Shown here in pieces: positions 32,057 through 35,013 of a stretch of 64,000 bases of DNA. This DNA comes from Bdellovibrionales bacterium (GTDB lineage: Bacteria; Bdellovibrionota; UBA1018; CAIMNF01), in contig CANNBJ010000003.1 in assembly GCA_947502835.1 (NCBI GenBank), positions 124,001 through 188,000 of the forward strand. The letters run 5' to 3'. The notes beneath the pieces were generated by a model, which made no database searches, had not been told where the DNA came from, and was given only the letters and a program-made list of their open reading frames with translations. Position 1 is the first letter of the stretch; each line of letters begins with the position of its first letter. The position numbers and the translations under genes were made by a program.

Positions 32057-32539
32057 CTAGAAAAAAATACTGCGGAAGAAGTCCAAAAGCGTTTGATTGG
32101 TTTCAGCAGAGGTGGGGTTTGATGGATGGAGATGCTGCTTCCACTCGGATTCACGTTTCGCGGCTTCAGCCCTCCAAAAAGCCCGGTTGTCTTCAATCCG
32201 TTTGAGTTCGCCTGAGTCGAGCCAGACTCCATGATTCGGACAGCGGTTGATGATCACGCCCGAATCATAGGCGAAGTTCATCGCATTCATGGTTTTGGAG
32301 CAAAACGGACAGGAGAGGTGGTCTTGCCGGGCATCATTGGAAATGCCTGCATTGAGGTGTACCCCGGAGCTGATCTCGGAATTCGGGGTGTTTCCATTCG
32401 GTGAAGTTTCAAGAATTGCCTCGAGTTCGCCTTGGTCGAGCCAAACGCCCCCGCATTGAGAGCACTGGTCAATTTCCACTCCACCATGAATCTGGTGAAC
32501 ACAAGAGCCTTTGCAACGGAGACAGGTCTGAATGGACAT
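32057..32539 (-). CDS. tandem TFIIB-type zinc-ribbon protein
   Basis: 160 residues with two zinc-ribbon units: CLRCKGSC then CSQCGGVWLDQGEL, and CPFCSKTM then CPNHGVWLDSGEL. In the second unit one Cys is replaced by His. Such zf-TFIIB proteins bind zinc, with no settled function. The start lies 4 bp after the stop of the interrupted 45-codon gene, so the two were once a translationally coupled pair and the MITE insertion cut the zinc-ribbon gene off from that leader. Confidence 0.78.
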   Translation of the reverse strand: MSIQTCLRCKGSCVHQIHGGVEIDQCSQCGGVWLDQGELEAILETSPNGNTPNSEISSGVHLNAGISNDARQDHLSCPFCSKTMNAMNFAYDSGVIINRCPNHGVWLDSGELKRIEDNRAFWRAEAAKRESEWKQHLHPSNPTSAETNQTLLDFFRSIFF

Positions 32540-32543
32540 GCGT

Positions 32544-32891
32544 TCAGCCTATCATGGCTTTCAGGAAATTTTGCACCGCTTGGAGAAGTGTTCTAACTGC
32601 CCCCGAAGATTGCGCCTGCCCTCGAATGGATTGGCTGCATGATGCTTGATTTGACGCGAGTATTTGCCGGGATGCCATCCCTGATTCGGGGCAGCCTGAT
32701 TCTCTTGCGGATTTCGATTTCAAAACCCGCACAATTACCATGAGTTAAAGCTGAATTCTGTCGCCCTCAGGCGCAATCTTCGGGGGCAGTTAAAGAAGTG
32801 TTGACCGGCGGCCCAAGTCCCGAAGCGGGGAATTGGCTAAGAGCTCCAATAAAGGAGCGGTGAAAGGGTTACCCAGTGGTTTAAGAGCCAT
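32544..32891 (-). pseudogene. 45-codon small gene split by a MITE
   Basis: From ATG 32891 (GGAGG site 7 bp upstream) the frame reads MALKPLGNPF and so on for 33 codons, then meets a stop inside the MITE's inverted repeat at 32790. Removing the MITE and one copy of the 9-bp duplication rejoins the frame exactly, giving RRSTLL-QAVQNFLKAMIG and TGA at 32544-32546. The restored product is 45 residues, amphipathic and helical. No family recognised. The clean restoration and coupling to the next start argue it was a real gene. Confidence 0.65.
32593..32793. mobile_element. 201-bp MITE with 25-bp inverted repeats
   Basis: Terminal inverted repeats TAACTGCCCCCGAAG and on (25 bp, perfect; 32594-32618 with 32768-32792). 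The element is flanked by an exact 9-bp direct repeat AGAAGTGTT (32584-32592 and 32794-32802), a target-site duplication. No transposase frame inside. A 9-bp duplication fits IS5/IS903-, IS4- or IS1-type transposition; the parent family is not identified. It interrupts the 45-codon gene described above. Confidence 0.88.
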
Positions 32892-32897
32892 CTTAAA

Positions 32898-32993
32898 TCC
32901 TCCGGTCGCAAGCTTTGATGTCGCCATCAAAGTGGAGAGGGGAGATCTTGATGAGCTCCGGAACTTTCCGGGCCGCATCGGTCACTCCCCTCT
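32898..32993 (-). promoter_or_regulatory. structured 5' leader of the interrupted small gene
   Basis: On the minus strand: a 9-bp stem (AGAGGGGAG/CTCCCCTCT, 32936-32944 with 32985-32993) enclosing CCGGAA-AG-TTCCGG, then an 8-bp hairpin with a GCGA tetraloop (32913-32932), then the GGAGG site. A further stem TTTAAGA/TCTTAAA folds around the ATG. This looks like a cis-acting RNA, but it matches no riboswitch I know. The remaining gap 32994-33121 shows only a GCCAG/CTGGC hairpin. Confidence 0.4.
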
Positions 32994-33121
32994 ATTTCAC
33001 TCTTTGTGCCAGACTTCATCCTGGCTCGTTTCTTTGAATATCAAGGACTTGGGACGGATCCTGGTTGCGGCGTGTCATTCTGGCACTGACTTTCCGCCCC
33101 AAAAGCTACCCGTTTTGGCCC

Positions 33122-33900: not shown

Positions 33901-34746
33901 ATGCAAAATTTAATCAGGTATTTGGCTTTGGTGTTGGTCGTGGGATGTGGACAGGTCAGGGACCTTGGGCAGAATGGATTTCAAGCGCCTCCCCAAAAAC
34001 TGGGTGAAGTTCGCGGACAGACCAGCCTTGGTCCCGCGGTGCTCTCCCTTTACTCGGGACAGGTCGATCCGGAGCGGGTTCTCGGATGGGTCGGGACCTT
34101 GGATGAGGTGATTGAAGTCACTGAGGTTGTGGCAGGTTCCGGGGCTGTTCCCTTTGAGCAAAAGAGTGAAGAAGTCACGGTTCGCAACAGCCCAATCTAT
34201 ATGCTCTCCTCCACACCCGAAAAAACGGAGCTTGCGGCATTTGTGAATTCTGGATTTCAGGCCCATCTTTCACAGCCTTTGTTTCATTCCAGAATCATTG
34301 AGCTCTCGCCTTACCTCCGCTATTGCGACCAGTTCTCGTTTCGGGGAAACGACTACTTGAAGGATCCTGTGAAGTGCAATCCCGGAGCCTGGTGTTTTGT
34401 TCCCCAGCCCGCGACCTTTCTCTGCCGGCTTGATGGACAGGGACAGCCGGAATGTCAACCCTGGAGGCGATATGGAATGCCTGTTCCCAATCCGCTCCCC
34501 TATTCGAGGGCGGATTATTTAAGCACTCTTGAGGAACCAAGAGCTTTTGTCTGCAACCATTGGTCAAATGCCTCTCCATATTCTTACCGTCTTCGTGAGA
34601 TGAAGCGGCTCAGTAAGCTCAGGGCAAGTTTCGACATCGGCAGGAAAATCAAGATCGAGACACCCAGTGGGCAGCTCGATTCCGGGGCTTCTGAGACCCG
34701 CTGGGTTCAGTTCAAGGAACAGGGAGTGGACTTTTTGTTGGAATAA
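33901..34746 (+). CDS. putative lipoprotein of unknown function
   Basis: Signal MQNLIRYLALVLVVGC has a lipobox-like VVGC. 281 residues, with a Cys-rich middle (YCDQF, VKCNPGAWCF, FLCRLDGQGQPEC, FVCNHW). An AGAGGG site lies 5 bp before the ATG. No domain recognised. Convergent with tatA. Confidence 0.58.
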   Translation: MQNLIRYLALVLVVGCGQVRDLGQNGFQAPPQKLGEVRGQTSLGPAVLSLYSGQVDPERVLGWVGTLDEVIEVTEVVAGSGAVPFEQKSEEVTVRNSPIYMLSSTPEKTELAAFVNSGFQAHLSQPLFHSRIIELSPYLRYCDQFSFRGNDYLKDPVKCNPGAWCFVPQPATFLCRLDGQGQPECQPWRRYGMPVPNPLPYSRADYLSTLEEPRAFVCNHWSNASPYSYRLREMKRLSKLRASFDIGRKIKIETPSGQLDSGASETRWVQFKEQGVDFLLE

Positions 34747-34779
34747 GAAAAATGGAGCGCTGCTGAAGAGCCGGGGCGC

Positions 34780-35013
34780 TCAGGCCTTGGAGTGCGGGTC
34801 TTGGTTTCCCCCGGCCTTGGCTTCCTTATGGGCGTCCTGCTTTTCATTCTCTTGAATTCGTTTGAAAGAAGCTTCCTCAACACCGCTCAGCGAGTCCTTG
34901 AAGTTCTTGATGGCCTTCCCCATGGTATGGCCAAGTTCGGGAAGTCTGCGAGGGCCGAACAAAAGAAGAACGACGCCTACGATCAGAAGATGCTCAAACG
35001 AAATGCCAAACAT
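34780..35013 (-). CDS. tatA: Sec-independent translocase subunit TatA/E
   Basis: ATG 35013 with an AAAGGA site. One transmembrane helix (EHLLIVGVVLLLFGPRRLPELG) with the FGPRRLPELG hinge and an amphipathic helix (GKAIKNFKDSL), then a charged tail: the full TatA/E plan in 77 residues. It forms the pore-like assembly of the twin-arginine pathway. TatB and TatC are not in this window. Confidence 0.93.
   Translation of the reverse strand: MFGISFEHLLIVGVVLLLFGPRRLPELGHTMGKAIKNFKDSLSGVEEASFKRIQENEKQDAHKEAKAGGNQDPHSKA

Follow-up and report, generated by a model that had tools for sequence, protein, structure and literature searches.

Gene arrangement at the locus and structure of the inserted element

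The window analyzed here comprises 64,000 nucleotides and corresponds to positions 124001-188000 of contig C3 in the 2.73-Mb genome G000, which consists of 8 contigs. On its minus strand it features a gene for a zinc-ribbon protein of 160 aa (32057..32539; two stretches match Zn_ribbon_TFIIB), which is followed at higher coordinates by a MITE of 201 bp (32593..32793, no strand assigned) and by a block of about 233 nt (32803..33035) that is a candidate for a structured non-coding RNA. The RNA would be encoded on the plus strand and thus be divergent from the zinc-ribbon gene. The terminal inverted repeats of the MITE are 25 bp long and reside at 32594..32618 (plus strand, TAACTGCCCCCGAAGATTGCGCCTG) and 32768..32792 (minus strand); they are complementary at 25 of 25 bases. 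The 9-bp sequence AGAAGTGTT is present on the plus strand on either side of the element, at 32584..32592 and 32794..32802. In all these respects the preliminary description of this DNA, made from the letters alone, was accurate to the base. It had also noted that deletion of the MITE and one repeat rejoins an open frame of 45 codons, which is indeed the case: on the minus strand, the 5' part of the frame lies at 32803..32891, the rest at 32544-32592 in the empty site, and the stop is situated 4 bp before the ATG of the zinc-ribbon gene.

The flanks of the MITE match at 9 positions, while none of the 380 mismatched left/right flank pairs drawn as a null from 20 elements of the MITE/IS family scores above 7. 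Among the elements of the same genome the window copy is the only one with an exact duplication. The MITE copy at C4:175853 carries a near-duplication (9/10), and by the same flank scoring no duplication stands out for the remaining MITE copies and none is clear for the insertion sequences (IS) of this genome. The simplest reason for so few duplications is that older ones have been lost by decay; recombination between copies is a possible alternative cause.

Related short elements and the probable partner insertion sequence

Further copies were sought in the genome by DNA and pattern searches. Together with four others that are 86-88% identical over the full length (C4:76310, C4:174582, C4:175853 and C1:137813), the window MITE forms a subfamily of five, termed subfamily A. 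A search with the MITE end, as had been proposed beforehand, yielded twelve additional short elements with related ends. All 17 elements, dispersed over contigs C1-C7, are 194-201 bp long, even though interiors from different subfamilies bear only a remote resemblance to one another. The element at C2:522074 still resembles both main subfamilies in register, a residual similarity which suggests that the short elements belong to one old lineage. This similarity makes it needless to take the equal lengths as a sign of independent capture, and we rejected that idea. A length constraint on mobilization is a possible reason for the uniform size of elements with such dissimilar interiors. Two members of one subfamily (C4:174582-174778 and C4:175853-176049) are oriented in the same direction about 1.1 kb apart and could act as a composite pair.

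A full-length IS sharing these ends, for which the preliminary description had likewise suggested looking, was found in two intact copies (C1:527685-528693 and C3:507477-508485). Their ends are near-identical to those of the MITE, and their frames of 308 aa are 93% identical. A third IS, a 71% relative, is located at C2:527548-528544. Between the interior of the MITE and the IS no similarity was detectable, the likeness being confined to the ends, and descent of the MITE by internal deletion therefore lacks support. Four contig ends in G000 lie inside IS copies of about 1 kb (C2:1-670, C3:1-468, C5:1-468 and C7:98961-99229); the assembly thus breaks off at this repeat, and more IS copies must exist than the intact ones counted.

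Exact flanking repeats of 9 bp also surround two autonomous relatives, L114 (AGAAACTTA) and L122 (GAGTAATCA). In both, a single base separates the repeat from the (T/A)AACT end, just as in the window MITE, so that the length of the duplication and the spacing agree between the MITE and its autonomous relatives.

Bacterial type II MITEs are less than 500 bp long, have inverted ends of 4-30 bp and carry no transposase; they resemble an autonomous IS at the ends only, and direct repeats are kept mainly around younger copies (PMC10969869). The window element agrees with them in its size, its inverted ends, the lack of a transposase gene, its dispersed copies and a likeness restricted to the ends of an autonomous partner (C1:527685 and C3:507477). 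It differs in that its family is new and in the narrow size range that all 17 elements maintain. It is thus a new member of an ordinary kind, namely a type II MITE belonging to an IS1-like family.

The transposase of the probable partner

No Pfam family passes its cut-off for the IS transposase. The NCBIfam model transpos_IS1 matches all 14 aligned transposases at E <= 0.01 (best 1.6e-12), and the two enzymes from G000 itself that were scanned score 32 and 43.7 bits, where the cut-off is 100. They are relatives of IS1 that by score fall outside the IS1 family. The family occurs in 32 of 97 genomes and is spread over the phylum. A search of plasmids, phages and viral contigs returned no relatives of the transposase.

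An AlphaFold model of the transposase (mean pLDDT 79) shows a zinc ribbon, a helix-turn-helix and an RNase-H-like fold in this order. The best matches among solved structures are ISCth4, Mu and retroviral integrase complexes, all with low TM-scores. D131 and D210 are invariant in the aligned transposases and map in the model to the expected strands or to positions directly following them. N256-H257 is invariant across the IS1-related transposases of the phylum and opens the helix on which the catalytic Glu is usually found. E243 is near-invariant too, but falls within a low-confidence loop of the model. Sequence conservation and model together suggest D131, D210 and N256 as the likely candidates for a putative DDN catalytic site.

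Duplications of 9 bp are typical of the IS1 family, and those around the relatives L114 and L122 have this length. The partner shares with this family (NCBIfam NF033558) also the zinc-binding N-terminus, the helix-turn-helix and the RNase-H-like catalytic fold. It differs by scores below the cut-off, a single frame of about 300 aa, ends that start with (T/A)AACTG and, as far as the model allows this to be read, Asn (N256) instead of Glu as the third catalytic candidate. IS1016 elements are reported to produce 7-9-bp duplications (IS1595/IS1016 family, e.g. ISApl4, PMC12561309). The partner shares with them a related model of the zinc-binding N-terminus, but its ends are different, its protein is larger and only two of the 14 transposases match the IS1595 model NF033547 at E <= 0.01 (best 0.0031). 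The transposase lies on a deep branch distantly related to IS1 and has a zinc-ribbon/helix-turn-helix/RNase-H-fold architecture.

Empty site and age of the insertion

The sister species G008, which belongs to the same genus, has an orthologue of the zinc-ribbon gene (71% identical) and the same DNA upstream of it, and here the target sequence is single and uninserted. The element is also absent from all 57 relatives searched. It follows that the transposition was real and is private to G000. The proposal that a non-autonomous element has transposed and that the ancestral state can be read therefore stands, resting on the dispersed copies, the same-ended IS, the empty site, the lack of the 201 bp in all 57 relatives and the 9-bp duplications around the autonomous relatives. 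The event had furthermore been called recent, and this part can only be bounded. The duplications show no difference in 18 bases (d < 0.15 substitutions/site) and the arms none in 50 bases, corresponding to d < 0.06 substitutions/site if they were identical on arrival. With 13 changes from the subfamily consensus the window MITE is typical of its group (range 12-18) and therefore does not stem from a fresh burst. The insertion is younger than the split from G008, yet it is no product of a fresh burst.

A conserved block next to the insertion

The last base of duplication copy 2 is 32802 and the first base of the conserved block is 32803, so that the block was left whole. Over 32803-33035 it retains 91% nucleotide identity in G008 and in G011, a further species of the genus, whereas most neighboring genes reach 68-77%; an exception among them is the partial tatA match with 85-90%. 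The block terminates in a terminator-like hairpin with a T-rich tail on the plus strand (33008..33035), and the same stem and the same tail, TCGTTTCTTT, are present in G000, G008 and G011. A covariance model built from these three sequences detected a divergent homologue in G002 (E 1.3e-6), which is syntenic as it lies between hpt and murI in the neighborhood of tatA (gene names by reading of the frames). A fifth match in G005 is weak (E 0.002) and also syntenic. The candidate thus occurs at the tatA-hpt locus in five of the 12 genomes of the genus, in one of them weakly (window 32803-33035 on the plus strand, L062:443-684, L095:2843-3084, L104:3759-3980 and L128:1501-1745), and a search of 240 genomes of the phylum gave matches in these five only. 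A second match in G000 itself (C6:181766, E 0.012) was weak and not accepted. In G008, G011, G002 and G005 a gene for an hpt-like phosphoribosyltransferase adjoins tatA (e.g. L062:2359-2913 and L095:594-1148); it is absent beside tatA from the list of open frames in the window (34746-34790).

Compensatory changes were counted at 15 of 73 pairs, more than in any of 500 shuffles and all slid controls, in an alignment of four sequences; because this alignment was fitted to the structure by the model and mainly the one divergent homologue supplies the changes, the covariation counts as support and not as proof. An alignment made without such guidance also folds better than its column-shuffled versions, whichever strand is taken, and does so more clearly on the minus strand (z -4.5) than on the plus strand (z -2.9). 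The asymmetry of G-U versus A-C favors the plus strand, counted on the structure predicted for that strand. Although the unguided fold favors the minus strand, the conserved terminator-like hairpin makes it quite probable that the RNA is encoded on the plus strand.

The preference of the unguided fold for the minus strand, together with the fact that in G000 and G008 the block lies on the upstream side of the zinc-ribbon gene, would fit a zinc-ribbon mRNA with the block as its cis-regulatory leader, split from the gene by the MITE. We consider this unlikely. In G011 the zinc-ribbon gene is missing from the locus and the block persists, which is therefore not simply the leader of that gene; in G002 the block resides between hpt and murI with no zinc-ribbon gene downstream. 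Hairpin and asymmetry also argue for the opposite strand, the latter with the restriction just given.

Much less probable still is that the MITE disrupted a real gene for a small protein, as had been concluded in the preliminary description, and that this gene was co-transcribed with the zinc-ribbon gene. The rejoined frame is open, starts with ATG, has GGAGG seven bases upstream and ends next to the zinc-ribbon gene. In relatives with an uninserted site, where an intact frame of 45 residues was to be expected, it comprises 39 (G008) and 33 codons (G011), and a one-base shift after codon 27 leads to a different C-terminus in both. Over the first 26 codons, one synonymous change compared with the window is faced by six to eight nonsynonymous ones. 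An excess of synonymous changes was absent from every frame on either strand of the conserved block, and a protein encoded by the block on either strand was rejected. That G011 retains the block without the zinc-ribbon gene speaks against a disrupted gene of this kind as well. By these sequence comparisons the 45-codon frame is almost certainly spurious: it overlies the RNA candidate and does not merit annotation as a protein.

Hardly any credence can be given to the idea that the 201 bp serve a function of the host, for instance as a regulatory hairpin, that the direct repeats are fortuitous and that no transposon was inserted. Both strands fold strongly (z -6 to -7), but the inverted ends dominate this fold, and a conserved RNA structure of the interior was rejected with only 2 covarying pairs across five copies. 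The empty site in G008 and the dispersed copies refute the idea; the same-ended IS and the 9-bp duplication are also at odds with it.

Proposed course of the insertion and its significance

We are highly confident that a type II MITE, presumably mobilized in trans by an IS with the same ends, hit no demonstrable protein gene and came to adjoin a conserved RNA candidate. The transposase from the IS of about 1 kb in the same genome would act in trans on the MITE, which lacks a transposase of its own, and would bind the shared (T/A)AACTGCCC(C/T)CGAAGATTG ends. A cut staggered by 9 bp would then leave AGAAGTGTT on both sides. According to this scenario, the MITE landed after the separation of this species from G008, between the zinc-ribbon gene and the RNA candidate, directly ahead of the base at which the conserved block of the latter begins.

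As the block begins right after the duplication, the insertion replaces its upstream region on the plus strand and leaves the block itself intact; what lay far upstream of the zinc-ribbon gene is replaced as well. It is conceivable that expression of the RNA or of the zinc-ribbon gene is affected, for example by replacement of an upstream promoter. A consensus promoter was found on neither side of the MITE.

The insertion represents a clean natural experiment with a filled and an empty site, a probable parent and autonomous relatives whose 9-bp duplications match. It also links a family of MITEs to a branch of IS1-like transposases that has been little described and apparently has Asn at the third catalytic position. 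No fitting description of an IS1-type MITE or of a matching small RNA turned up in a search of the literature. The RNA candidate is more interesting than the MITE and the part worth following: it is the kind of locus that gene-centered annotation would overlook or mistake for a small protein. We lean towards reading 32803-33035 as an undescribed structured non-coding RNA that five species of the genus share at the tatA-hpt locus and that in this species had the region directly upstream replaced by the MITE. If this is true, the insertion is a natural test of the RNA's expression. The block resembles 6S RNA (RF00013) in being a structured bacterial RNA of similar size but differs in having no meaningful match among all models of Rfam 15 (the best has E 4.4 and reaches 9 bits, the gathering score being 500). 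Its identity as 6S RNA was rejected, as a separate 6S gene scoring above the cut-off is located at C2:81371-81548.
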